A stretch of DNA of 64,000 nt from Polytrichum commune (taxonomy: Eukaryota > Streptophyta > Polytrichopsida > Polytrichales > Polytrichaceae), in contig OX485804.1 of NCBI GenBank assembly GCA_950295325.1, positions 8,122,001 to 8,186,000 on the forward strand, written 5' to 3'. Position numbers and translations under genes: made by a program. Of the stretch, positions 4,798 to 64,000 are shown piece by piece (position 1 is the stretch's first letter; each line of letters opens with the position of its first letter). The notes under the pieces were generated by a model. The model ran no database searches, had not been told where the DNA came from, and saw only the letters and a list, made by a program, of their open reading frames with translations.

Positions 4798-5021
4798 CGG
4801 GCCCAATGATCGGGGAGATTTTTGGGCATAGTGTTTGCAAGTCCAACCGGTTACATGTTGACATCCTTCGGTTTTCCTTTATTAATTTGAGGCATATTCC
4901 ATAAATTCCTCTAAAGTGATTGGTAATTCTCTTGCACTCTTGAACTTCAACCGGTTATTTCTCAAACTCAACCGGTTCATGTGTTACTAACCGCCGGTTC
5001 TTCCCGATCCTAGATCGGGCC
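4798..5021 (+). mobile_element. Non-autonomous TIR element, family M1, copy a
   Basis: About 224 bp. The left end is GGGCCCAATGATCGGGGAG. The right end, reverse-complemented, begins GGCCCGATCTAGGATCGGG. The body contains the diagnostic CCGGTTACATGTTGACATC and two CAACCGGTT boxes. Seven further copies or fragments occur at 16801-17033, 31334-31562, 43461-43667, 55317-55540, 55690-55905, 55918-56080 and 57194-57265; the last two are halves of one copy. No ORF. Confidence 0.75.
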
Positions 5022-10825: not shown

Positions 10826-11496
10826 CAGTTGCGATGATGATGATGCATCACCAAATCGAGCTAAGCTAGGAAGGCCCGGACCGGAATTGAATCGGCACCG
10901 TCGAAGAAGCCCATCCATCGGTGGCGAGCGTTGGGGTCGCAGCAACCGGTCTAAGTTGCCTACTTGTTGTTCTGAGCAGCCTTGGGCACACGCTTGTCTT
11001 CATATCTCCATCTCCCTCCTTGTTTACCCGCAGGCTGCTTCGAAGAAGAAGAAGAAGAAGAAGAAGAAGAGGAGGAGGAGGACGACGACTCACAAAGTTC
11101 AACAGGAGAAACAGAAACATAAGGCCATTCAAAGGTCCCATTTTTGGGGTGCAAGATAGGCAGACAAAGAAATCAGCCGAAGCGCCGGGCTTGTTTGGTG
11201 GGATTCATTGTTGGGGGGTTTGTTGTTTAGGGGTGGTGTTGATGTGGACGTCGGCCGCGCGGTTGTTGTGTGTCGGCTTGGTCAGGGGAGCGGCCGTAGG
11301 TGTTTCTTGAGGCGGGTGTCAATTTGTTGCCTGTTTTTGGGTTGAGGTGGGTTGGGTTTCATTCTCAGGTGTTTGGGATTGTGTTGAGTGGCGGCGGTCT
11401 GGGTTAGAAGATGGTGGCGATGAGGAGGTGAAGTGGTGGGTGGTAGGTTGGGGAAGAGACTGTTTTGGGGAGTGGTTGAGGTAGTGGTGGGTTAGG
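10826..11496 (+). promoter_or_regulatory. Probable 5' leader of RR-TZF gene 1
   Basis: A GC-rich stretch with GAAGAA and GGAGGA repeats at about 11040-11085 and several upstream ATGs. From about 11235 to the start codon it is clearly homologous to the leader of gene 2 (63456-63735). Upstream of about 11230 the two copies no longer align by eye. ORFs inside it, such as 10921-11310, are low-complexity and unsupported. A leader intron is possible but not demonstrable. Confidence 0.45.
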
Positions 11497-13458
11497 ATGC
11501 CGGGAGTGCTGCAGGATGAGCAGCAGCGGTGGTGTTTGGAGACTGTGAGCAACGGAGGAGGAGGAGCGTTGTACGATTCGATGGTGGATTACGAGACGAT
11601 GGCGGTGGCGGCCGCGCATCAACAGCAGCAGCAGCAACAGCAACATCAGCATGGGTTGCAGTCGCCTTCGCAGCATGCAATGCGTCGGTTGAGCTCGTTC
11701 TCGGCGGGGATGAAGGATACGGAGCCAGGGTTTGGAGGGTTAGCCCAAGCCTCACCGCATTTGTTCCAGCGGAGCCATAGCTTTGGGAGTGGAGGAGGCG
11801 GGTTGCACTCGTTCAACTTCTTTGGGAGCCCGCCGAGCTCCCCTGCGGCCAAGTCTGAGATGGGGTTGTCGCTTCTTGATGTAGTGGACGAGGCCGACCT
11901 GGGATCAGGGAAAGGGGGGTTTTTTGATGACACTGGCAAAGGCTCAGGCAGGCCTGAGCTTCGGGGACTCACATTCTCGAGCTCTTCATTGAGCGGATCG
12001 GTCATCGGCTCACCGACATTTTCTGACTCGCTTCAGAGCTTTAACAAGTTCCTGCCTTCGAATAATGAGGATGAGGATGCATGGCCGGCAGTGGACATGT
12101 ATGGGTGTGATCAGTTCCGGATGTTTGAATTCAAAGTGCGTCGGTGCATGAGAGGCCGTAGCCATGACTGGACGGAGTGCCCATTTGCACACCCTGGAGA
12201 AAAGGCTCGCCGCCGCGACCCCCGTCGGTTCCATTACTCTGGAACGGCCTGCCCTGACTTCCGCAAGGGAAGCTGCAGGAGGGGAGATGCATGCGAGTTC
12301 GCCCACGGTGTGTTCGAGTGCTGGCTTCACCCTGCACGATACCGCACCCAGCCATGCAAGGATGGCCGTAACTGTCGCCGCCGAGTCTGCTTCTTCGCTC
12401 ACACTCCGGAGCAGCTGCGGCTCCTGCCGGCGGCAGCGCAAGCGGCCACAGCGGGAGTTCGTTCTACCAGCCAAGGATCGCCCCTTAGAGGATCCTACGA
12501 TGGCTCACCTCGATCCTCTGCGGCAGCGGCGTATGATGGAGCATATGGGTACGAAGGGAGTTCGTTCGACGGAGCATCGGCCACCCACGTTGGGTCCCCT
12601 CTGGGCCATTTCTCAGGATACTCCGCCGCCGCTCACTCCCATTGTTGCGTGCCATCGCAGATATCTTCTCCGACTTCTACCCTTGTGGGTCACGCGCACT
12701 CTCCTCCCCCTCTCTCCCCCCCTCTCTCCCCTTCAGCATCGCCCCCTTTGTCGCCGTCCTCGCCTAACGGCTGGGCTTCCGAGGTGCTGCCGAACAACTA
12801 TACTTCCATGTCTGCTCAAGGGGTTATGTCACAGGCTGCTCTGCAAGCCACGATTTCTCAAGGTGTGTACTCTCGATCGCAGAGTTCGCATTCCATGGGG
12901 GCAACGGGGCATGTTCACTCTCCTACCCAGCCGGCACACCGGCGCCATTTGGACCGTCTGAACTCGATGCCCACTTTATCAATTCCGTCGACCGGAGAGC
13001 AACATCGCAGCGTGCACAGCAGCCACGTGGGGATGACAGGATCGGCTCCTTCCTCGCCCTCTGGGGTGCCGCAGAAGTCCATGTTAGAGCTCATCGCAAC
13101 TCTGCAGCAGCTGGAGCTTCGCAACCAATCCCCTCCTCCTGCGACCACTCAATGGCTCCAGCAGCAGCAACAGCAATACACCTCGGGACCTTCTCCTCTG
13201 CGCCGATGCTCACAGAGCGTCCCTGGCACACCAACTAAGGTGAGGTGGGAGCAGAAGGAGCGATGGGAGATTGACGAAAACGAGGAAATGGAACCCATGG
13301 TGATGCGTGTGGAGTCGGGCAGAGACCTTCGTGCCAAAATCTATGGCCGGCTCGGCAAGGAGAGTCCAATGGACGCTGATGCTGTTGGAGGCGATGCCCC
13401 TGACCTCGGGTGGGTGAATGAGCTCGTGAGGGAGGAATCTGAGCAAGCTGTTTGGTAA
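11497..13458 (+). CDS. Arginine-rich tandem CCCH zinc-finger (RR-TZF) protein, paralog 1
   Basis: Complete intronless gene, 653 residues. RR-TZF proteins bind U/AU-rich mRNA, promote its decay and move between nucleus and cytoplasmic P-bodies or stress granules (family knowledge). Seen in the protein: poly-Q/His tract at 42-52; Ser/Gly-rich region to about 185; acidic EDEDAW at 191-196; RR motif C217-X10-C228-X3-H232; then C252-X7-C260-X5-C266-X3-H270-X16-C287-X5-C293-X4-C298-X3-H302, the exact plant RR-TZF spacing. Further on come an SP-rich stretch at 401-423, an export-signal-like L532-X3-L536-X2-L539-X-L541, poly-Q 555-560 and the C-terminal DLGWVNELV at 636-644. No ankyrin repeats are visible. 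The start is fixed by an in-frame TAG at 11482-11484 and by the identical MPGVL start in paralog 2. Targets are unknown. Confidence 0.96.
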
Positions 13459-14560
13459 AAGGAAGTGCATTGACATTGTGTGATACCCCTTTCAAAGGCT
13501 TTGGGGAAATTTGTGGGAGGGGCCGTGCAGGTTGGGTATTCGTCACTGGAAACTGGGTAGGAGGTTAGGGGATGGTGAATTGCATGATTTTGTATTGGTG
13601 GGGACTGGAAGGATGGGGTCAAGGTTAGGAAGATGAAGGCGTTCCGATTGTACAAGAGGTGGGGATGGGAAATGATGAACGCCTGCTTCATCGTGATTGG
13701 GGTCGGAGGGGGCTAAGGCATCAAACAAACAAACAGGTTGTGGCCGTAGGCAAGAAGCTCGCCGTTAACGCAGCGGCCGTGGCTGTGCCGCAGATAAACC
13801 ACATAGAAGAAGAATCAAAATTCATTTTTTTGGATACGTAGGCCATACATTTGCTTAGGAGATAGTAACAGTCCGCTGATACATGACGATACGTTCTGCG
13901 ATGCCCTGCTGTGCCGGCCGACCTCATGGTGTCCATTGGAAGTAGATGGCAATATTGATGAAGGAGCTGGCTTGGGAGGGAGGGAAGGAAGGAGGGAGGT
14001 TGATGACACGTTGTTTGGTTATAAGGATAGTGGTGACAGCAATTGTGTTAAAACGGAGACGATGCACATTAAGACAGTATGATATACATATTATTGAATG
14101 CACTGCAGAGGAGCAAGCAGACAGTGCGGTGATATTGAACAAGTGCGATAGTCAATTATTATTCTACCCGGTTTTGGTCGCCCCTGATGAGAAGACTGGA
14201 AGCTGGAGGGGGGGGGGGGGGGGGGGGTTATCCTGAAGCAATTTTTTGATTTCTCACTCAAAATTTGTGATTGTAGCTAGGCTTTTGTGATTTATTAACA
14301 GCAGGATGTAGTGTAGGCAAAAGAGGGAGCATGCATGTGGACTTTTGTGTAGATGCCACGGACAAATGACATTGTGAACCCAAGGTCACCAGAGCAGACC
14401 TACCACAGGAGAGTCATTTCATGACTGATCGGCGTCCATTTTGAAAGACATATGTCGATCTAGTGCCTAGGATTAATTTGTAAATTCATTCATGATGTCA
14501 TGATGATGATGGCTTTTGTAATATACGTTCCTCTGCCCTACTCATTTCATTTAATTACTT
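13459..14560 (+). promoter_or_regulatory. Conserved 3' untranslated/flanking region of RR-TZF gene 1
   Basis: About 1.1 kb that pairs with 60415-61511 downstream of gene 2. The parts 13459-13925 and 14040-14545 are very similar between copies. About 13935-14030 is clearly more diverged. The last 300 bp differ at only a handful of positions apart from a poly-G expansion. No ORF is supported. It probably covers the 3' UTR; no exact poly(A) site can be named. Confidence 0.6.
14208..14227 (+). repeat. Poly-G tract (20 G) in the 3' region of gene 1
   Basis: A run of 20 G. The matching position downstream of gene 2 has only five, so the tract expanded (or assembly noise entered) after the duplication. 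Confidence 0.9.
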
Positions 14561-15045
14561 GCATTTTGCATCCCTTGTGCGCACTAGGCTACCTGTTCTG
14601 CTGTGCTCTCAAAATTTTGTTTGCATAGGTTTGTTTTGCAGGAAATGGGCATTGAGTTTCTGTGTGTGGTCTGGCTGCATGTGGAGGACAAACTTGACAT
14701 CAGTTCGTGTTATATGATGTTAGAAATCCACACCTGTTATTTTCAGGGATCTCTTCTCTACGTCTGCGATCTTTGTAGCTTTTGAAGTTCGGCTCAATTC
14801 ATGCCTGTCTGTGTCATATTCCTTTTTATCATTGTGATCCTCTGGATTTGCTTCAATCACAAAAGTTGTAATTGTGAAAAGTTGTAATTGTGATTCTCTT
14901 GGATGAAAGTTGGCCTTCTTTGCACAGATATGATGTGTTTCTGGAATGTTGCAGCAGGTGTGGCAGCCTTGACGGATACAGGTGCCCTACCTGTGCTCCC
15001 CTTGTGCTTCTGAGATTGTTTGTTGGTAGGTCTTCCATTTAGGTA
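14561..15045 (+). other. Distal, decayed part of the duplicated block
   Basis: Most of this stretch no longer aligns with the flank of gene 2. Islands remain, such as GTTTGTTGGTAGGTCTTCCA near 15020 against GGTTGTTGTAGGTCTTGCA on the reverse strand near 59925. The original duplication therefore probably reached at least here. No gene seen. Confidence 0.45.
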
Positions 15046-16800: not shown

Positions 16801-17033
16801 TAAGTGTCTGGGGGAGATTCTTGGACACAATCGGTCGAGACTGTAGTGTTTCTGAGACTGACCGGTTACATGTTAACATCTTTTGGTTTTTCTTTATTAA
16901 ATTGGGGAATATACTGTAAAATTCCTCTAAAATGGAGCGGTAATTTTCCTGAACTCTTGGATTTGAAGTGGTTATTTTTCAATTTCAGGTTCATTTGTTA
17001 ACTAGCGGTCGGTTCTCCCTCGTGCATTGAACC
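16801..17033 (+). mobile_element. M1 family TIR element, copy b
   Basis: Same order of blocks as 4798-5021: GGGGGAGATTCTTGGACACA, ACCGGTTACATGTTAACATC, CCTCTAAAATGGAGCGGTAA, and CGGTCGGTTCTCCCTCG at the right end. No ORF is supported across it. Confidence 0.7.
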
Positions 17034-19049: not shown

Positions 19050-20760
19050 TTGAGAGAGGAAAAAGCTTATTTGGAGTTCCACAATCCTAAACCCTATATC
19101 CTAGAGTTCATTTCCAAGGCATTTGAGCGGTTTTTGAAGGACCATGGCATTGAGAAACAAACATCCACCCCGTACATGCCTCAACAAAACAGAGTGGCGG
19201 AGTGTGCAAATCGCACCATCGTGGAGATTACGAGGAACATGCTTCATGCTCAAAATCTCCACAAATTATTTTGGGTGGAAGTGGTGGCCAATGCGGTGTA
19301 CACATGAAACCAATGTGTAACAAGGGCATTGGACTCAATTACACCCAATGAAGCGGAATGAGGCCTTGCATTGCACACATGCGTGTGTTTGGACACTTTG
19401 TGTACATAATGATGCAGGATGAAGAAGAGGGTAAGCTCGATGCAAGGGAAACCAAATGTTTGTTTTTGGGTTCTTGTGAGAGAACTAAAGCCTATAGGTT
19501 GATGTGTTTGCAAATTAAAATGATTATGAAAATAAAGACATGATATTCATAGAGGATAACACGAGCATTAAAAACGATTTGGAGATGCATCAAAGTAGAA
19601 GAAATGAAGACCCTATGGTGATCGTTGTAAATTAATCTTCAAAATCATCTTCATGTGATGATGGTGAGGAGTGCGAGGAGCAAATGAGAGATCGCTTGGT
19701 TGCAAATGAAGAAGAAATCGTAAGACCCGTGGGAATGAAGGCCGCCTCAAGAGATTCAACAAACTTGGGAAATATTCTAAGAGGAAGCAGCGCCAACCTG
19801 GAGAGTGGTGATAGAATCACATTTTTTCTCAACATAGTGAAGAACGGACCAATGTGGTATTTTTAGATGAGCATTTGAATTCGTGCGAAGCGTTGAGATC
19901 CGAAGATGCGAGTGAGTGAGAGGTTGCAATGCAGGAGGAGTATGACTCGCTTATGGCCAACAATATGTGAGATAATGACCAACGTTCTAAAGGATCAGAA
20001 TAGTGTAGGATGCAAATGAGTGTTCATACTAAGAGGGATGCATCGGATAAAATCGTTAGGTATAAGGTGCAGTTAATAGCAAAGGGATATTCTCAAATGA
20101 CTGGAGTGAATTTCAACGAGATCTTTGATCATGTGGCCAAATTTATCACCACTAGATGCATTCTCGCAATAGGAGCAACCATGGATTGGAAAATCCACCA
20201 AATACATGTAAATACAACATTTTTGGATGGAGTATTAGAGGGGGAGATCTATATGGATCAAATTAACGGTTTCGTACAAGAGTGGAATGAACACCTTGCG
20301 TACAAACTCAAGAAAGCTTTATACGGGCTCAACCAATTGCCGAGGGCGTGGTATTAATGTATCCAATTGTTCTTTATCAATGAGGGCTTTTACAAGCCAA
20401 GTGGATTATTTGTTGTACGTCAAACAAATGGGTGAATTTGTGTTGGTGACAATCCTCTATGTGGATGATTTGATCACATTGGCATATAATGTAATCTAGT
20501 TGAAGTGGCTCAAATTGGAGCTCGAAAAAAAATTGAGATAAACCATCTTAGAGAGTTGCATTATTGCTTATGAGTGGAATTTGGGAGGAATAAAGAAGCC
20601 CGTACCATCATCATGAACCAAAGAAGCTATATTAAGAAGGTCTTCAAGCGTTTTAATATGAAAGAATGTAAACCGGTGGGAACTCCGTTCGATGCAAATT
20701 CAAAATTGTTAAATCTTTTGGATGAAGAATTTAGAAATTTGCTCCAAATATAAATATGTT
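19050..20760 (+). pseudogene. Ty1/copia retrotransposon pol relic (integrase and reverse transcriptase)
   Basis: Several frames of one decayed copia polyprotein lie in the normal order. Integrase core with FLKDHGIEKQTSTPYMPQQN is at about 19130-19190, in which the usual NGVAER is NRVAEC and the preceding GGEF region is lost. The MRVFG and TKCLFLG boxes follow at about 19380-19475. Reverse transcriptase is at about 20040-20355 (LIAKGYSQM, ALYGLNQLPRAWY), and the YVDD active-site box at 20458-20469 is still intact. A frame-shifted tail with KPVGTPFDANSKL is at about 20670-20705. RNase H and long terminal repeats were not found. Multiple stops and frameshifts make it dead. Confidence 0.88.
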
Positions 20761-31333: not shown

Positions 31334-31562
31334 GATTAATCAACAGGAAGAATGGACCACTAGTTACAAATGAACCGGTTGAGTTTGAGATATAACCGGT
31401 TGAAGTTAAAGACTTAAAGAAACCAATCATCTTGGAGGAATATGTGGAATATACCTCACATAAAGAAATAAAAACCGAAAGATCATAACATGTAACCAAT
31501 TGGACTGGGAAACACCAGGAATTTGACCCGTTATGTCCAAAAAATTCCCCGGACATTGCACT
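31334..31562 (-). mobile_element. M1 family TIR element, copy c
   Basis: Reversed copy. AACCGGTTGAGTTTGAGA and ATAACATGTAACCAATTGGA mark the body, and AAAATTCCCCGGACATTGCA marks the outer end. No ORF is supported. Confidence 0.7.
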
Positions 31563-40423: not shown

Positions 40424-40630
40424 CTAATTCTCTAGAGTGGCGAAGTGAGGTAGCCTCCATGAGATTGAGGTAATGTCAACTTGGTGGTCCAATTGAAAGA
40501 AAGACTTGAAGCTCCTTAGGACTACATTCTCAAATAATGATGAAAACTTATCTCTAATGAACTTATATATAGGACATTCCAACACAAAATGTGACTCATT
40601 TTCAACTGTATTATAGGAGAAAAATGACAT
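40424..40630 (-). pseudogene. LINE-type reverse transcriptase, C-terminal zinc-region fragment
   Basis: The minus-strand frame reads ENESHFVLECPIYKFIRDKF followed by about 30 residues. This resembles the C-terminal block of plant non-LTR retrotransposon proteins (CxxC...ESxxHFLxECPxYxxIR). The upstream reverse transcriptase domain is absent. The first part is also contained in each of the adjoining 335-bp tandem units. Confidence 0.55.
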
Positions 40631-41567
40631 AGTCTAAAAGCCACTAAACATATGAGTGTGGACCATGGTGCATATAGTCGGTTCCATATTCAATGTCGGT
40701 TGTGAGAATACATACCTTAGATGATGTAGATGATCTCCTTCAACGTTCACAAAGCAAGAATGAGCGTGTGAGGCAATATCCACACACATGCGACCTTATT
40801 CTTGATAACATTTCTATGCAGAATTAGGGTGTTGGGGGGGATGAAGGGAAAAAGTGCCTCCAAGTACGAGCCAAACCTCAATGGAATCTACAAAAACTTA
40901 TATAGAGGACATTCCAACATAAAATGTGACTCATTTTCAGTTGTATTATAGGAGAAAAATGACATAGTCTAAAAGCCACTAAACATATGAGTGTGGACCA
41001 TGGTGCATATAGTTGGTTCCATATTCAATGTCGGTTGTGAGAATACATACCTTAGATGATGTAGATGATCTCCTTCAACGTTCACAAAGCAAGAATGAGC
41101 GTGTGAGGCAATACCCACACACATGCGACCTTATTCTTGATAACATTTCTATGCAAAATTAGGGTGTTGGGGGGGGATGAAGGGAAAAAATGCCTCCAAG
41201 TACGAGCCAAACCTCATTGGAATCCGCAGAAACTTATATAGAGGACATTCCAACACAAAATGTGACTCATTTTTAGCTATATTATAGGAGAAAAATGACA
41301 TAGTCTAAAAGCCACTAAACATATGAGTGTGGACCATGGTGCATATAGTCGGTTCCATATTCAATGTCGGTTGTGAGAATACATACCTTAGATGATGTAG
41401 ATGATCTCCTTCAACGTTCACAAAGCAAGAATGAGCGTGTGAGGCAATATCCACACACATGCGACCTTATTCTTGATAACATTTCTATGCAGAATTAGGG
41501 TGTTGGGGGGGATGAAGGGAAAAAGTGCCTCCAAGTACGAACCAAACCTCAATGGAATCCGCAGAAT
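40561..41567 (-). repeat. Three tandem units of 335-336 bp
   Basis: Units start at about 40561, 40896 and 41232 with ACTTATATA(G/T)AGGACATTCC and end near 41567. They differ by only a few bases, so the amplification is recent. Each contains the ESHFVLECP frame on the minus strand plus GGACCATGGTGCATATAG and a G7-8 run. The first unit grades into the LINE-like ORF at 40424-40630. Confidence 0.92.
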
Positions 41568-43460
41568 TCAAACATTCTCTACTTTTGAGAGGCATTCAAA
41601 TTGTTGTGTATCCCTCTTTGACATTGCGGACCTAAGATGGCATCTCGTGTCTCGGTGAAGAATCTAGGAAGGATGAAGATTTCTCTTTGAATAAAGCTTA
41701 ACCCAATGCATGATGTTGGGACTGAGGCATGTGTTATTAAGTATATGCTTTTTGCCAAGTTCAAGTCAGTTGCAAGTCACATATAAAGATTTGCGACACA
41801 TAAAGCGGTTTCAAGTCTACGATCATTGTGTCTAATTCTTCTTGATGTTCTCAAAGCCATCTTTGTATTGGGAACATAACATTCTTAAGGAGGGGAAGAG
41901 GCTCACACAATCATTTCAAAATAGGTTTGAATTTATTCTAGAATGTCATACCCCATCCCACTTCCATCCATTAGGACACGCATCCGCATCATGTTGTTGG
42001 TGAACGAGTCTCTCTCTCCACCAATATGCACATCTTGCACGGGAGCTTTAGATGGAAGGGGGTGTTGCTCCCTAGGGCTGGACTCTTCATTCCATGTACA
42101 AACTAACGTGAGTGTAAAAGAGATATTATTTAAAGGCATTAGCATACATTGTATACATAAGGGAGAGGAATTATTTTTCTCTAGTGCGACATTTAGAAAG
42201 GTTTTTTTTTTTGGGAAGTATAGGTAGATATACAAAAGGGGGCCCTAAGATTTAGAGAGAAAAAAATATCTACAATAGATTTGTTGGTTTCATCTAATTC
42301 ATGTTTTCATCCATTGTTGTCATATGGTCATAATTCTTAATGACTAACATGTATGTTCTTGTTGGGGTTTGCATTTGCGTTCTAGGTTTTCATAAACAAG
42401 AGGCCCTTGGAGCACTCATGGGCTTTCTTGAGTTTCTCTCTCTTTGTGTGTTCAATGTATTTATTGAGTTACATGCTATTGATGAAAAAGATTCAACAAC
42501 TTCCTCATCGGAAAGTGAAAGTGAAATTTTATTTGTAAGAAAGGTATACTTAATTCATGATTTAAATTATGTAGTGGAGACATTTGTTGAATTAAATATA
42601 AAATCTTGGTGTACATACATGAGCCCGAATTCTAGCATGCCATTAGTATGTACACGTATGTTTTTCTCTATAGAATTCTCAAATATAGGGGGTTTGATTT
42701 CATAGTGACCCATGCATGTCATTTAGATTTCCAATGAATAGTCCACCCCACGGGGTGTTGCTCTTGTAATTAAGATTTTTATGTGCACAAATTCTTAGAT
42801 TGTAAGTTATGTGTTGTGACACACTTCATTGCTCCACAACAAAATTAATTTCATGCATGCATATGCATCATATGATACACTCTATAATATCAACCTACTT
42901 AATGTCACTCCTCTTGTGTCCCAAAACCCTAGGGAACAGATGTTCTTAGTTTAAATTTTACTCCTTGTTGTCAAGTTTCCCTACCATATATCATGGGTTT
43001 TGACATTAAACTGAACCACCAAAGATTTCAAACCACACGCTCCCTCGCATCATGTTGTCATCATTATAATTATTGCCATTTTGCAATGTTGACTTGATGT
43101 TATTCCATAATGTCACCTGCTACACTAATTCTCTTTTATCATGCATCCATGTCAACACTATATAACTCCAAAGTACACGTGCACTTTGGTTGCCACAAGT
43201 GTGATATAACGGAGTTTTAAGTGTATAACATACTATCTTATAATAACTGATTATAACATAATAGCTGTAAACTCACATGGTAGTTAATCTACATACACTT
43301 CTGTGATTTCTTTTTAGGTCAGAATTCATTTTTATCAAATCGATTGATTTTCAAGTAAAAATATCGTCAGCTGTTCTGGAGGAACTTAAAACTATATTGT
43401 CCAAAACTAAGACACTTTGGACTTGCAACATGTGGATATTGGTCATCAACATGACAAGGT
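41568..43460. other. Intergenic, no gene established
   Basis: A 121-codon frame at 42340-42705 has a hydrophobic start and an STTSSSESESE stretch, but its end overlaps the dispersed repeat at 42625-42750, so it is not called a gene. 41579-41764 on the minus strand may continue the LINE relic. No domain found. Confidence 0.45.
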
Positions 43461-43667
43461 ACCAGTGCCTGGAAAGCTTTTGGGCATAATCGGTCCAGAT
43501 CCTAGCGATTCTAGATCCAATTGGTTACATGTTGACATCTTCCGCTTGTGCTTTAATTCATTTGAGGTATATTCTATAGATTCCTCTAAAGTGATCGGTA
43601 ATTCTCCTGAAGTCTCAAACTCAACTGGATCATCTGTAACTAACTTTCAGTTCTACCCGGACATTGC
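43461..43667 (+). mobile_element. M1 family TIR element, copy d
   Basis: CTTTTGGGCATAATCGGTCC, TTGGTTACATGTTGACATCT, CCTCTAAAGTGATCGGTAAT and an end reading TTCTACCCGGACATTGCA. About 23 bp of the CAACCGGTTATTTCTCAAAC segment is deleted between short direct repeats. Confidence 0.7.
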
Positions 43668-44047
43668 AAGGTACTCTTTGTACAATGCATAAAAATCGGA
43701 ACATAATTCAAAGAAAACAAGATGCCAAATCAAATGATTCAACAAATACAGTCTCTACTACACTATCCTCGGGGATCTTGACATGTGAAGAGTTTCTTCC
43801 AGAATCCACTAAGTATAGTAAATTAAATTGAGCCTAGTAGTTCGATCTATTGTTTGCAGTTATCAAATTTATACATTCTTATTTTTCTTGTACAAGATCA
43901 AGAGGATTCAACGTGTGTAAGAACACATTGTTTGGATAGCCGATGCCAGAAGTTATAAAGAGTTCAAAGGTTCAGTTGTAGGCAACTGAAAAGCAAGAGA
44001 TAGTGCCTATTCCAGTTGCCTATCTCATCTGGGAACTCCCAGACTTA

Positions 44048-44551
44048 GGGCCACTTCCCACACAAGACTTGAGAGCCCTTGACCATTACACTTCAAGCAC
44101 TCTCATTGGGGGATAGGCGGAGCCGGTCCAAGTTCACTTCACACTACGCTTGAGGGACCAACGGAGTATACAAGTGAATGCAAGATGGATGTAAAGTCTA
44201 CATGGATTCCTACACGGCATCGAATGGACCATATTTCATGGTCACTTGGATTATTTTCAAAAACCACCTCTTGAAAGAAGGTCTAATACAAAACCGGAAG
44301 ACCATGACAACCCAAACACTCACAACTGTTGATGTATTATATTTTAACATGTGTGAGGATCCCACACAAATAGAAAATCATTGAAATAGCATTTGGTTGA
44401 TGGCCGGTCACATATGACTTCACACTACACTTTGAGGGCGTGTGACCACAATACATGACTTTGGAAGTGTGTTGGGACGGCCTTTGGACACTTTCTTTTG
44501 GGCTCTCACAATTTCATGGTCACGGCTCTTGGCCCTTGTGTGAAGTGGCCC
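44048..44551. mobile_element. PIF/Harbinger-like non-autonomous element H3
   Basis: 504 bp. TIRs are GGGCCACTTCCCACACAAG on the left and GGGCCACTTCACACAAGG on the right (reverse-complemented). The TSD is TTA at 44045-44047 and 44552-44554. No transposase. Confidence 0.85.
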
Positions 44552-44606
44552 TTAATACTTCTCTCATGCAGTGTTCACGGCACGAAGATGATTATTACCG
44601 TGTGAG

Positions 44607-44682
44607 TTTGGGCAATTTAGCACCCAGGAAAACGTGCGGGAAAGTCCACGGATTTGTGTCCATGGGTGCTAAATCTCCCAAA
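44607..44682. repeat. Short hairpin, possible mini-MITE
   Basis: TTTGGGCAATTTAGCACCCA at 44607-44626 pairs with TGGGTGCTAAATCTCCCAAA at 44663-44682, leaving a loop of about 36 bp. No TSD resolved. Confidence 0.6.
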
Positions 44683-45210
44683 GTTCCTTTCGGAACTGTA
44701 GTCATTCGCCAAAAGTTTCCTCCGAATCCCTGTGTCTACAAAGTGCGGATACCAAAAAGACGTGGAAATTCGTCGCCAAAGTCGGATCATTTGGCAACAG
44801 GCCGGCTATAAGTTGATGTACTTCTTTCGACTCCTGATTTGCAGGTACAACAATGGGTAAACTGTAATGACATGCGGCACCCATGCACTTGACACAGTAC
44901 AGGAAGGAGGATGAATGCACAGGAAAGAAATTGAGGAAGATTATAGTAACCTCCGAAGACATCGGATTGATAAAGCGGGTTTTTTGTCACGATGCTCAGG
45001 ATCTTGACTGACTTGCATCTGAAGAGCATCTTCAACTACTACCTTTTAGGGAAAGGACGGACGAATCTCACCTGCAACATGATCTGCGAACTGCTCTCGT
45101 CTCAACCCTCTCATGCAAGTAGTTATGCTGTAACCGATTATAAGAATTACATGCACGATAGGTCTAGCGGCTTGTGACCAGCAGAATGTCCTTCGAGTCC
45201 TTAAAGGGTT

Positions 45211-45668
45211 TTAGTGTTTTGGTCCTGGAGGATGAGGATCCTCGCGACAGTCGAGTCGCTGCCACCAATTGCTCGGGCTCTACGACTGATGCAGGGCTAC
45301 TTAATGACGACGGGTGCCGACTGAATATCCAGATCAGGGCCAGGGGAGTGGGGATCCTCACGACAAATTGGGATCCTGCCAACACGGGGTGGGCACCAAT
45401 CTGTCTTGCTGTACTACTACAGTACCTGTGCGTGTGATATTGCAGCAGAAGCATGAGGATTCTCACGGCAATTCGGGTTTTGGCAGCATGGAGGGGTAGG
45501 CAGCAAGCGCTCGGGAATGATTACTTGTGGTCCAGGAGGATGAGGATCCTTGCGACGCTCCAGTCATTGCCAACACGGAGTGGGCACGGGTCGAGACTGA
45601 GCGGCGAGGATGAAGAAAGAGTAGATTGCGAGAACAAACATCGTCGCCGTTGCTCGGTGGAGATCCAT
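45211..45668 (-). pseudogene. Decayed gene for a secreted, Cys-containing repeat peptide precursor (unrecognised family)
   Basis: I do not recognise this gene. The ATG at 45668 opens a frame with a signal-peptide-like start: hydrophobic core at residues 10-23 (MFVLAIYSFFILAA), possible cleavage after AAQS. The sequence RPVPTPCWQ follows, then a TGA at 45564-45566. In the same frame come RRKDPHPPGP (unit 1), CCQNPNCRENPH (unit 2, about 45441-45504) and CREDPHSPGPD (unit 3, about 45331-45396). A shifted frame gives WWQRLDCREDPHPPGPKH and a stop (unit 4, 45211-45268). The TGA aligns with CGA (Arg) of unit 4, so one C-to-T change explains it. Stops and shifts lie between units. A TATA-like TATAAT sits near 45746. 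Another, open frame crosses unit 1, so coding is inferred. Confidence 0.4.
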
Positions 45669-46515
45669 GATCACGGTCACCTGTACACAACATCGTGGAC
45701 ATGTTCTTTGCAATCCTACAAGTCATACCGTGTCACATATTATACCTAGATTTCTTCGGTAATTATCTATTGCGAAAAAGGAAGATCTCAGTTCCTTCAC
45801 GAATTAGGCCAGGTGGCCCTATAGTCTCCATGCAAGAACTCGTATGTGAATTTCTTTCCGTCAGCAGACTTTCCTTGCGGACATGAAAAGAATTGATCCA
45901 GCTGAAATTCACAGACATCAACCAGAAATCAATGACGTGAACCTCACCTTGATTAACATGTCGGCCATTGTCAGGCCTAAAGATTGATTCCCTACTAAAT
46001 CACGAGGATCTCTCGAAAAGTTAGGTCAGGCTTGCTTGGAGTTGCAAGCCAAACACGGCCACCGGTGCTCGGTAGCGATCCATGATCACGATCACCTGTA
46101 CACAACATCATCCACATGTTCATTGCAATCCTACAAGATATGTGTCACATACACCTATATTTCATTGCGTAATCCAGCATCCTTGCGGAACGACGAGTTT
46201 CTTTAGGAATTACCTATTGCGAAAAAGAAAGATTTAGAATCCTTCCTGAAATCTTAGGCAATGTTCTGTACCTAGTCTCGAAGGAAGAACTCGTATGTGA
46301 CTTTTCTTTCTGCTAGAAGACATGGAAAGAATTGGATCCACCTGCAACTTTTCATACAATCACAGACGTCAACCAGAAATTAATTAATGCAACAAACCCC
46401 ACCTTGATGAACATGTCAGCCAATGTCGGGCCAAAAAATCTATTCGTCACTAAATCAGGAATCTCTAAAAAGCTTGGTCAAGCTTGTGCGGAGTCGATTT
46501 GCAATCACGAGGCGC
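45625..46515 (-). repeat. Tandem duplication of upstream region plus start codon (about 415-bp unit)
   Basis: Copy 1 is about 45625-46039 and copy 2 about 46040-46515. Shared anchors are GATCCATGATCACG, CACCTGTACACAACATC, ATTGCGAAAAAG, AAGAACTCGTATGTGA and CACCTTGATxAACATGTC. On the minus strand copy 2 also begins ATGGATCGCTACCGAGC at 46083, matching the start at 45668, but stops after 20 codons. The duplication therefore copied a promoter and the first codons of the 45211-45668 gene. Confidence 0.75.
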
Positions 46516-46799
46516 ATGGCACTTTTCACAGCGATAAACAACAGCGACCAAACAAATGACACTTCAGAGGGACGGACAGAAAACGCACCTTAGAACGATG
46601 GACCTATGCAAATTGTCCCCGAAGCTGATCCAGAGAATGAAGGTACGCAGCTGGGAAATTTTTCTTACCTTAAATAGGACACAACTGGGGTAGTAAATTA
46701 AAGAACACCTCGAGGCTGCTGGTTTCTCACCTTCCAATGAAGCAAACAGTAATGAAGAGCCATGTCACAAAAAGATGTTAAACAATTCTCGCCTTATGA

Positions 46800-47390
46800 T
46801 TCTAGTTATGTTAATTGTTGAACTTCACAATGTAGACAAATATGATCGATGCAATTTTAGAAATTAGACAGCTCGGGTCGAAGCAAATGTACTAATGATC
46901 CATAGGCATCCGAGGTTACAAGATTTATTGAAACCCCAATGGGACCTCGGTGAAACGATTGGAGAACACCGAACAGAGATGAACTTGAGTTAGGGAGTCA
47001 GAGAGATTGACAGCTTCAGATTCCACTTATACTGCTAGAAAATAGAACTCGTACCACTGCAGGAGGATCACTAACAGCGCACTTAGAAATTGAGCAAGAA
47101 TCTTCGGAAAAAGTGTGGCGGTATTATTCGAATCAAGTTCATTGTTGAACTTCAAGCTGATCAGTAAAGCATTTGCATCGCCAAAGCTGTCTGAATTCGA
47201 AAGCTATGGTCGATGCAAATGCATTCCTGATCCAAAGACCACATCTGAGATTACATAGAAAAGTTAAACCCCAATGAAACGATTGGAGAACATAGAAGAA
47301 CTTAAATTAGGAATTCGAAGAGATTGACGATAAATATCGCACTTAGAACTCGAGCAAGACAGTCGGGAAGTGCGAATGAAATGACATTTC
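46800..47390. repeat. Diverged tandem duplication (about 330-bp unit)
   Basis: About 46811-47130 and 47142-47390 share GTTGAACTTCA, TGxTCGATGCAA, TGATCCAxAGxC, AACGATTGGAGAACA and AGAGATTGAC. Like the preceding block this is GC-richer than the surroundings and not part of a dispersed family. No gene recognised. Confidence 0.65.
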
Positions 47391-55316: not shown

Positions 55317-55540
55317 ACAGGGTGAACCAACCGCTAGTTACAGATGAACCAGTTGAATTTGAGAAATGTACAGTTGAAATTCAAGACTTCAAGATAATTA
55401 CCGATTGTTTTAAAAGAATCTATAGAGTATACATGATATTAACAACGAAAAACCAAAATCGCAACATGTGATCAGTTGGACTTGGAAACACTAGGATATT
55501 GACCGATTATGCCCAAAAATCTCCCCGAACACTAGCCCAA
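55317..55540 (-). mobile_element. M1 family TIR element, copy e
   Basis: GGTGAACCAACCGCTAGTTA, CAACATGTGATCAGTTGGAC and ATGCCCAAAAATCTCCCCGA in the reversed family order. Confidence 0.7.
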
Positions 55541-55689
55541 TTGGGGTGAAATAATCACAAGCATGTGGGGGACATGTTATCTTTATACTAGACCCCCTTT
55601 CCTACAACAATAACTTAAGATTGGTGAGGATGAGCCCAAGCTCAAAGAGCAAGACATCTATTCTACGCAATGGACGGGGAGAATGGGCA

Positions 55690-55905
55690 CGGGCCATTGC
55701 TTATGAATGAAGCAGTTGAGTTTGAGAAATAAGCAATTGAAGTTCAAGACCTCAGGAAAAGTATCAATCGTTTTAGAGGATTTTATAGAATATACCTCAA
55801 ATTAAGAAAGAAAAAATTGTAAGACGTCAATATGTAACCAGTTGGACTTGAAAATACTAGGATCTCGACCAGTTATTCCCATGATCTCCTCGGACCTTGA
55901 TTCTA
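55690..55905 (-). mobile_element. M1 family TIR element, copy f
   Basis: GAAGCAGTTGAGTTTGAGAA, CAATATGTAACCAGTTGGAC and TCTCGACCAGTTATTCCC in reversed order, ending in TCCTCGGACC. Confidence 0.7.
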
Positions 55906-56080
55906 TGTAGCCCCGGTCCAATGAATGCGGAGAACCAACCTCTAGTTACATATGAATTGGCTGAGTTTGAGAAATAATTGGTTAAAGTTGAAGACTTCAA
56001 GAGAATTATACATCGTTTAAGAGGAATCTATGGAATATACCCCAATTCAAGAAGGAAAATTTGATACATCATAACATGTA

Positions 56081-59505: not shown

Positions 59506-60414
59506 GCATTGCGTCTAGTTGTGAAGCTTTCCCAACTACATACATAAAACCTCGGTAAATGCTGTAAACAGGATGCTCACCCCTGGGTTGTGTGAAATAG
59601 CAGATGGCTAAGTAGCATAGAAATGATGCCATGGTCCCACATAATTTCTCTGCCACACAGGATCAAAATTAGCAGTACCCACAAAGATTGTCTAGAAGAT
59701 TCGAGTGCAATCAAAGTACTGGTAACTGACCTGCTGATTGCCTGAAAATGCTGTGCACACAGCATTTGCGGAGCGTGCTTATAATTTAATCACATACCTA
59801 GTGTGCACTAGTAATCTTTTGACCTCCCATTGCCCATGCACAATTTGCAAACTCGTCTGCGTTCCACAGAAGGAATCAGGCAAGGTTCTACGAGCTTCGT
59901 TGGGTGATGCAAGACCTACAACAACCAATCTCTGAAATCCGCTCATTTGATATTTACGAAAGGAAATTTCAGAAGGACAAGAGATGCACATAGCCTTGTA
60001 TCTGCCACAGCTACTCCCCTACTAAGCTTACCTGCCAGAATCACATCATTTCAGTGTGCAGACAGAAGCCATAAAATTAACCAGCCAACCTGTACAAGAT
60101 AGCAAAGATGCCAAATCAAATGACACAAGTTTGCCAGTAAAGCCTGCTAGTAAGCAGTACAGATGGGCTGAAAGTACACAAGCCTCACAAAAAATCGGAG
60201 ACCTTGAAGGCCTTGGAGGACGAGGTTTGTGAGAACAAGAACATAAAATAGAACAGACCGATGGCAGACGTCTGAAGATAAACCATACAGCTTTCAACAC
60301 TACACATTAGGTTCAAGTTTCTCCCTTGACACTCGAAAAGGGTTGTGAATCTACAACCTAATCATTTCAACAGGAACTCTGGAACGAAATGAACAGCAGA
60401 CAAGCGATATGAAA
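59506..60414 (-). other. Distal flank of RR-TZF gene 2, partly alignable to 14561-15045
   Basis: Only islands (for example near 59915-59945) match the gene 1 flank. The rest has no recognised gene. The frame at 60046-60300 on the minus strand is unsupported. Confidence 0.45.
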
Positions 60415-61511
60415 TGCATGTAAATTAATGAAATGAACAGGGCAGAGGAACGTATATTACAAAAGCCATCATCATCATGACATCATGAATGAATTTACAA
60501 ATTAATCCTAGGCACTAGATCGACATGTGTCTTTCAAAATGGACGCCGATCAGTCATGAAATGACTCTCCTGTGGTAGGTCTGCTCTGGTGACCTTGGGT
60601 TCACAATGTCATTTGTCCGTGGCATCTACACAAAAGTCCACATGCATGCTCCCTCTTTTGCCTACACTACATCCTGCTGTTAATAAATCACAAAAGCCTA
60701 GCTACACTCACAAATTTTGAGTGAAAAATCAAAAAATTGCTTCAGGATAACTCCCCCTCCAGCTTCCAGTCTTCTCATCAGGGGCGAACAAAACCGGGTA
60801 GAATAATAATTGATTATCGCACTTGTTCAATATCACCGCACTGTCTGTCTGCTCCTCTGCAGTGCATTCAATAATATATGTATATCATACTGTCTTAATG
60901 TGCATCGTCTCGGTATTAACGCAGTTGCTGTCACCGCTATCCTAATACCAAACAACATTTGCGCCCCCTTCTCCCGACCCCCCCCACCTCCCTTCAACGC
61001 CGACATCTTCGTTCCGCCATCAATTTCCAATGGACACTTCCATGTCGACCGGCACAGCAGCAGGGCATCGCAGAACGTATCGTCATGTATCAGCGCACTG
61101 TTAGTAATCTCCTAAGCGAATGTATGGCCTACGTATCAAAAAAAATGGATTTTGATTCTTCTTCTATGTGGTTTATCTGCGGCACAGCCACGGCCGCTGC
61201 GTTAACGGCGAGCTTCTTGCCTACGGCCACAACCTGTTTGTTTGTTTGATGCCTCAGCTTCCTCCGACCCCAATCACGATGAAGCAGGCGTTCATCATTT
61301 CCCATCCCCACCTCTTGTACAATCGGACCACCTTCATCTTCCTAACCTTGACCCCATCCTTCTAGTCCCCACCAATACAAAATCATGCAATTCACCATCC
61401 CCTAACCTCCTACCCAGTTTCCAGTGACGAATACCCAACCTGCACAGCCCCTCCCACAAATTCCCCCAAAGCCTTTGAAAGGGGTATCACACAATGTCAA
61501 TGCACTTCCTT
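60415..61511 (-). promoter_or_regulatory. Conserved 3' untranslated/flanking region of RR-TZF gene 2
   Basis: Inverted counterpart of 13459-14560. The distal 300 bp (about 60437-60760) is almost identical to the gene 1 copy. A segment around 60955-61050 is clearly different and C-rich on the + strand. It probably includes the 3' UTR. No ORF is supported. Confidence 0.6.
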
Positions 61512-63455
61512 TTACCAAGCTGCTTGCTCAGATTCCTCCCTCACGAGCTCATTCACCCACCCGAGGTCAGGGGCATCGCCTCCAACAGCATCAGCGTCCA
61601 TTGGACTCTCTTTGCCGAGCCGGCCATAGATTTTGGCACGAAGGTCTCTGCCCGATTCCACACGCATCACCATGGGTTCCACTTCCTCGTTTTCGTCAAT
61701 CTCCCATCGCTCCTTCTGCTCCCACCTCACCTTCGTTGGTGTGCCAGGGACGCTCTGTGAGCATCGGCGCAGAGGGGAAGGTCCCGAGGTATATTGCTGC
61801 TGCTGCTGCTGTTGCTGGAGCCACTGAGTGGTCGCAGGAGGAGGGGGTTGGTTGCGAAGCTCCAACTGCTGCAAAGTTGCGATGAGCTCCAGCATAGACT
61901 TCTGCGGCACCCCAGAGGGAGAGGAAGGAGCCGATCCTGTCATCCCCACGTGGCAGCTGTGCACGCTGCGATGCTGCTCTCCGGACGACGGAATTGATAG
62001 AGTAGGCATCGAGTTCAGACGGTCCAAATGGCGCCGGTGTGCCGGCTGGGTAGGAGAGTGAACATGCCCCGTTGCCCCCATGGAATGCGAACTCTGCGAT
62101 CGAGAGTACACACCTTGAGAAATCGTGGCTTGCAAAGCAGCCTGCGACATAACCCCTTGTGCAGACATGGAAGAAAAGTTGCTTTGTGCCGCAGCAGACG
62201 ACCATCCATTAGGAGAAGACAGTGACAAAGGGGGCGACGCTGAAGGGGAGAGAGGGGGGGAGAGAGGGGGAGGAGAGTGCGCGTGACCCACAAGGGTAGA
62301 AGTCGGAGAAGATATCTGCGATGGCACGCAACAATGGGAGTGAGCAGCGGCAGAGTATCCTGAGAAATGGCCCAGAGGGGACCCAACGTGGGTGGCCGAT
62401 GCTCCGTCGAACGAACTCCCTTCGTACCCATATGCTCCATCATACGCCGCTGCCGCAGACGCTCGAGGTGAGCCGTCATAGGATCCTCTGAGGGGCGATC
62501 CTTGGCTGGTAGAACGAACTCCCGCTGTGGCCGCTTGCGCTGCAGCCGGCAGAAGCCGCAGCTGCTCCGGAGTGTGAGCGAAGAAGCAGACTCGGCGGCG
62601 ACAGTTGCGACCATCCTTGCATGGCTGGGTTCGGTAACGCGCAGGATGAAGCCAACACTCAAAAACACCGTGGGCGAACTCGCAAGCATCTCCCCTCCTG
62701 CAGCTCCCCTTGCGGAAGTCGGGGCAAGCCGTTCCAGAGTAATGGAACCGACGGGGATCACGGCGGCGAGCTTTTTCTCCAGGGTGTGCAAATGGGCACT
62801 CCGTCCAGTCATGGCTACGGCCTCTCATGCACCGACGCACTTTGAATTCAAACATCCGAAACTGATCACACCCATACATGTCCACTGCCGGCCATGCATC
62901 CTCATCCTCATTGTTCGAAGGCAGGAACTTGTTAAAAGCTTGAAGGGAGTCAGAAAATGTTGGTGACCCCATGACGGATCCATTCAACGAAGAGCTCGAG
63001 AATGTGAGTCCCCGAAGCTCAGGCCTACCTGAGCCTTTGCCAGTGTCATCGAAGAAACCCCCTTTCCCTGACCCCAGGTCGGACTCGTCCACCCCATCAA
63101 GAAGTGACATCCCTGACAAACCCAGGTCGGACTTTGCCGCAGGGGAACTCGGCGGGCTCCCAAAGAAGTTGAAAGAGTGCACGCCTCCACCCCCACCTCC
63201 GAAGCTATGGCTCCGCTGGAACAAATGCGGCGATGACTGGGCTAACCCTCCGAACCCTGCCTCATTGTCTTTCATACCTGCAGAGAAAGAGTTCAACCGA
63301 CGCATTGCATGCTGCGAAGGTGACTGCAAACCATGCTGTTGCGCCTGTGCCATCGTCTCGTAATCCGCCATAGAATCGTACAACGAACCTCCCCCGCCGT
63401 TGCTCACAGCCTCCAGACACCACGGCTGCTGCTCATCCTGCAGCACTCCCGGCAT
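61512..63455 (-). CDS. Arginine-rich tandem CCCH zinc-finger (RR-TZF) protein, paralog 2
   Basis: Complete intronless gene, 647 residues, convergent with the paralog at 11497. Same architecture and expected role in mRNA turnover: RR motif C209-X10-C220-X3-H224; TZF C244-X7-C252-X5-C258-X3-H262-X16-C279-X5-C285-X4-C290-X3-H294; export-signal-like L524-X3-L528-X2-L531-X-L533; C-terminal DLGWVNELV. Against paralog 1 the N-terminal poly-Q/His tract is reduced to AQAQQH, the distal poly-Q is eight instead of six, and GM is inserted near residue 115. The RR-TZF block is unchanged. The ATG at 63453-63455 (MPGVL) is chosen. The frame stays open ten codons upstream only to a TTG, and paralog 1 has an in-frame TAG there. 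Confidence 0.96.
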
Positions 63456-64000
63456 TCTCACCTCCCTGACCCTCCACCACCTCAACCACTTCCAAAGGCA
63501 CCCTTACCCCAACCTACCACCACCACTTCACCTCCTCACCATCATCTCCTAACCCTCAAACCCAGCCCACTGCAACAAAACACAACACAATCCCAAACAA
63601 CACAAGCGGATACCAATCCACCACAACCCAAAACACAGGCACAACAAAATTTACGCCTGCCTCAAGAAACACCCACGGCCGCTCCCCTAACCAAGCCGAC
63701 ACACAACAACCGTGCGGCCGGCGTCCACATCAACACCCGCTAATCTGGCCTAACCAAAAACCGAGCAAGCTCAATCGCTTGTGTGACTTTGCTGCTTGTA
63801 TCGGCCGTATGACTAGGGCCTTGTATCGGTTCTTCACCTGAAACAAAGAAGAACGAGGAGAAGAGACAGGAGGGAAAGAAGGAGAAACAGAGGAAGAAAA
63901 CTGAAGAACAGAAACGCGTGCAAAATGGGGAGAAAAAGAAGAAGAAGACGCAGCAGACCGCAGAAGCTGACGGGCTGCGACGGGCCGGGCGTGTGGGACC
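63456..64000 (-). promoter_or_regulatory. 5' leader and proximal upstream region of RR-TZF gene 2
   Basis: From 63456 to about 63735 it is homologous to 11235-11496 of gene 1. Beyond that the copies part. On the minus strand a CTTCTTCTT-rich stretch ends in TTTGTTTCAG|GTGAAG near 63840, which could be a splice acceptor of a leader intron or chance. The window ends before a promoter can be judged. Confidence 0.4.

Follow-up and report, generated by a model that had tools for sequence, protein, structure and literature searches.

What kind of product was once encoded by a stretch of moss DNA in which a signal-peptide-like start is followed by four copies of a cysteine- and proline-bearing unit in a broken reading frame? 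The question is raised by a locus on the minus strand of a 64,000-nucleotide stretch from Polytrichum commune (the window, in what follows), previously described from its letters as the decayed gene of a secreted precursor with four CREDPHPPGP-type repeats. On the evidence set out below, it is probably a land-plant pseudogene whose ancestor encoded a small secreted precursor of several units.

Layout of the locus and its lesions

The decayed locus starts with an ATG at 45668 and ends at 45211, the last base of the TAA stop after GPKH, on the minus strand, exactly where the preliminary description had placed it, and all four units that it had reported were found. From the ATG the order is a signal-peptide-like leader, four diverged copies of one unit with a consensus of about P-T-P-C-[W/C]-Q-x3-C-R-E-[D/N]-P-H-x-P-G-P, and GPKH followed by the stop. 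The leader, MDLHRATATMFVLAIYSFFILAAQS (45594–45668, minus strand), is in frame with unit 1 (45528–45593, minus), which reads RPVPTPCWQ, an in-frame TGA and LERRKDPHPPGP, with the core from CWQ through the TGA to the end of LERRKDPHPPGP at 45575–45528. Reading on past this TGA, with the frame unchanged from the leader and RPVPTPCWQ, gives LERRKDPHPPGPQVIIPERLLPTPPCCQNPNCRENPHASAA. The linker and unit 2, VIIPERLLPTPPCCQNPNCRENPHASAA (45441–45524, minus), are in the frame of unit 1 and hold the core CCQNPNCRENPHASAA at 45488–45441. The next linker and unit 3 (45336–45417, minus) read VVQQDRLVPTPCWQDPN and then, in a different frame, CREDPHSPGP; the core (45384–45336) consists of CWQDPN and CREDPHSPGP with one extra base separating the two parts. 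Unit 4 (45211–45280, minus) is read as EPEQLV followed by the frame-shifted WQRLDCREDPHPPGPKH and the stop, and is devoid of the PTPC head; its core WQRLDCREDPHPPGP (45264–45220) is without the first Cys. The gaps separating the unit cores are 39, 56 and 71 bases.

The heads of the units follow the pattern [V][I/V]xx[E/D]R-[L/P][V/L]PTP and the cores the pattern CWQxxxCREDPHxPGP. The C-R-E-D-P-H-x-P-G-P core, earlier described as conserved, is so in part, with C-R-E in three of the four units (R-R-K in unit 1) and P-G-P likewise in three (S-A-A in unit 2). Only units 2 and 3 have a complete C-x5-C pair; an Arg replaces the second Cys in unit 1, and the first is missing from unit 4. When the window was searched with a profile of the units, matches below E 0.39 were found only at the places of the units (five open pieces, E 6e-21 to 1.1e-5), a result that is informative only for the absence of other places in the window, as the profile was made from the very units it matched.

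The lesions comprise one stop inside unit 1 and at least four frame changes, located in the interval between units 2 and 3, inside unit 3, in the interval between unit 3 and the EPEQLV of unit 4, and at the unit 4 head. Decay by a single transition, as first proposed, therefore does not describe the locus. The TGA of unit 1 does align with a CGA in unit 4, but its ancestral codon cannot be deduced from this, because units 2 and 3 carry AAC and GAT there. TAG codons follow units 2 and 3, and are not necessarily separate lesions since another frame is open at these places. RNA editing or recoding of the TGA in unit 1 was considered on general knowledge and ruled out, as it leaves the frame changes unexplained. 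A living gene that only appears broken, through errors in the assembly or introns that escaped recognition, is hardly credible: one-base errors could mimic the stop of unit 1 or the extra base of unit 3, but there are at least five separate lesions within 458 bases, among them the absent head of unit 4. Gaps of 39–71 bases between cores are short for plant introns, and the lesions within units are beyond the reach of splicing.

By a simple measure distinct from SignalP (hydrophobicity over 12 residues plus a -3/-1 site), 11 of the window's 546 ATG starts with 34 open codons are as good as the leader or better, the leader itself counted. The putative cut between A-Q-S and R was chosen by eye, and the first site admissible by the -3/-1 script lies three residues earlier. 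Upstream of the start at 45668 there are ATGs in another frame, and a TATAATA noted by eye at 45738–45744 (minus), 70–76 bases upstream of the ATG, is a weak candidate for a TATA box. A tandem copy of the 5' flank, the start codon (46083) and about 14 codons is located further upstream (46042–46509, minus), with 67.6% identity, gaps included, to 45626–46057; it reads TATAGGT at the position of TATAATA and has no repeat units behind its start codon. The codons common to the leader and this copy differ by 4/2/1 changes at the three codon positions, a distribution without coding constraint. A scan for promoters of the bacterial type gave 3 promoter-like sites where 2.2 were expected, and was set aside as inapplicable to plant DNA.

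Codon-phase signature between the units

The four unit cores were aligned over 48 codon-aligned bases, after one base of unit 3 was left out and a gap placed in unit 4. Variable columns are distributed 8/3/14 over the codon positions, with 16 columns each (P = 0.0003 in 50,000 column shuffles with the phase left free). Pooled pN/pS comes to 0.32 for the CREDPH frame; the two other sense frames give 1.14 and 2.34, and the antisense frames 0.82, 0.50 and 2.50. When the heads are added, in an alignment where one codon of unit 2 is also set aside and two bases at the junction of unit 4 enter twice, the distribution is 12/6/20 of 23 columns each (P = 0.0001, 200,000 shuffles) and pN/pS is 0.43 versus 1.23 and 1.82 in the other sense frames. 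The phase signal is weaker in subsets, with P = 0.009 for the last 30 columns and P = 0.004 with unit 2 left out. Dropping the first codon gives a pN/pS of 0.35, a ratio reached in any sense frame by 4 of 3000 shuffles; for the number of synonymous codon pairs by itself, 87 of 3000 did as well. As a positive control, the window's pair of zinc-finger genes, aligned over 1923 bases, differs at 23/12/92 sites in the three codon phases; four pairs of repeats assumed to be non-coding served as the opposite control and show 18/25/17, 4/3/1, 14/14/7 and 14/25/21, with no phase bias of the zinc-finger kind.

The codon-phase bias, the pN/pS ratios and the controls together point to past selection on the CREDPH frame, and although the sites are few, it is very likely that, as the repeats diverged, selection for this protein frame shaped the sequence of the units. 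Equal dN/dS in every frame, one half of the outcome that was to speak against the locus according to the preliminary description, is not what was observed, and the signature sits in the frame proposed there. Another frame might instead be the real one, the CREDPH likeness then being an echo of a DNA repeat: stretches of 118 codons (45167–45520, minus) and 103 codons (45438–45746, plus) are both open, and an upstream ATG opens a competing frame. This is very improbable, as the five other frames all exceed the CREDPH ratio and the antisense frame at 0.50 is closed by stops in three units out of four. Neither stretch has a meaningful Pfam match, dozens of stretches in the window are open over at least 90 codons, and the frame of the upstream ATG compared with its copy shows 1/6/4 changes by codon position, without a third-position bias.

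Possible products and their relatives

The leader and units 1 and 2 share one frame save for a single TGA, units 3 and 4 are frame-shifted, and secretion is predicted. The precursor would most likely enter the secretory pathway, where the two cysteines of the unit (C-x5-C, still present in units 2 and 3) would close a small disulfide loop, presumably in all units before decay. The residue preceding the unit is Arg in three of the four cases and Gln for unit 4, and since the three Arg are written in three different codons (CGA, CGC and AGA), a protease site is suggested. Proteases cutting near the Arg would release several similar short peptides, which might, more speculatively, have served as signals or in defence.

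The main competitor of this scheme is that the units were parts of a larger folded secreted protein bearing cysteines and prolines, of a cell-wall or inhibitor-like kind, and were not released separately. The units are joined by short linkers, their cleavage is something we only infer, and selection on the sequence is compatible with both cases. We nevertheless regard such a protein as unlikely, with a basic residue ahead of three of the four units and no known domain found in the pieces searched against Pfam and NCBIfam; the loss of P-G-P in one unit should also be more tolerable in a multi-peptide precursor.

Precursors of CEP peptides have a signal peptide followed by at least one short Pro-rich peptide domain (PMC11276966, PMC5103176), which is given as 15 residues long (PMC11276966) with the consensus FRPToPGHSPGVGH (PMC11056954). 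The (D/N)-P-H-x-P-G of the locus resembles the NPGHSPG of that consensus, with N put at the variable position (PMC11056954), and a putative signal peptide ahead of repeated units has the layout of multi-domain CEP precursors (PMC5103176, PMC11276966). The units of the locus differ in having neither F-R-P-T nor a G between P and H, so that they fall outside the CEP domain as the consensus in PMC11056954 defines it, and in having cysteines, of which that consensus has none. The CEP-consensus scores of units 1–4 were reached by 2234, 3117, 345 and 1493 of 20000 shuffles, respectively, and the likeness of the tail to CEP is close to what chance gives, unit 3 being a possible exception. Of the earlier account, the decay of the locus and a probably secreted precursor with repeats are retained, and the resemblance to the CEP hormones is weak.

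Several cores per precursor are also found among plant RiPPs, and the review PMC11253845 lists cyclotides, orbitides, lyciumins and several cysteine-rich peptides with multi-core precursors. Its cysteine-bearing classes, which use the secretory route and carry disulfides, are similar to what would be expected of the locus, where repeated cores stand behind a leader and the units share one selected frame. The core is unlike those described in PMC11253845, with at most three cysteines per unit and no Pfam domain found in the pieces searched.

Against Pfam, with E values up to 10 admitted, eight of nine pieces matched nothing; the ninth, from a competing frame, matched at chance level (E 0.29). 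No match to NCBIfam was obtained with three pieces, and of two pieces searched against the PDB one had two matches at chance level (E 0.81 and 5.6) and the other none. A literature search by motif strings gave no relevant paper, CREDP matching only unrelated titles, apparently within other words, and one for secreted peptides of ferns brought up work on sulfated peptides. In contig collections of viruses and prokaryotes the degenerate core pattern was matched nowhere, and a piece of units 1–2 gave 24 pattern stretches in the viral collection with 0 confirmed; this absence tells little about plants because the collections are viral and prokaryotic by description. A new family is therefore offered as a proposal, with no match to the families in the searched libraries, and we stop just short of expecting the locus to be a member of a plant family not yet described, whose multi-unit secreted peptides would have a C-x5-C loop and a D-P-H-x-P-G-P tail, and of which intact members would be present in this genome or in related ones. 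Should such relatives exist, one could search directly with the unit motif for a family of peptides that may well escape gene annotation because its precursors are short. Otherwise what is left is a fossil peptide gene specific to one lineage, with past selection still legible between its own repeats.

The surrounding window

The window looks like land-plant nuclear DNA from its content, since it holds two AtC3H23-type CCCH zinc-finger genes and a fragment of a copia-type reverse transcriptase at 20004–20354 (RVT_2, E 1.8e-29). The zinc-finger genes, each a single ORF (653 and 657 codons), are located one in each copy of an inverted duplication of about 3.3 kb (11235–14578, plus, and 60400–63737, minus). 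The copies lie some 46 kb apart in blocks 85–97% alike, and the coding differences between the two genes are mostly at third codon positions. In bins of 250 bases, GC reaches 0.55 and 0.52 over most of the locus (two bins), and is 0.38–0.49 in the flanking bins at 44000–45249 and 45750–47249 and 0.35–0.36 at 43000–43999. A 335-base unit occurs three times in tandem at 40560–41566, with copies 94–99% alike to the first. Members of a dispersed repeat family, 61–84% alike, are found on both strands at 4829–5004, 16844–16920, 31346–31552, 43468–43621 and 55344–56080. Beside the locus, at 46781–47345, there is a repeat in two copies 317–335 bases apart.
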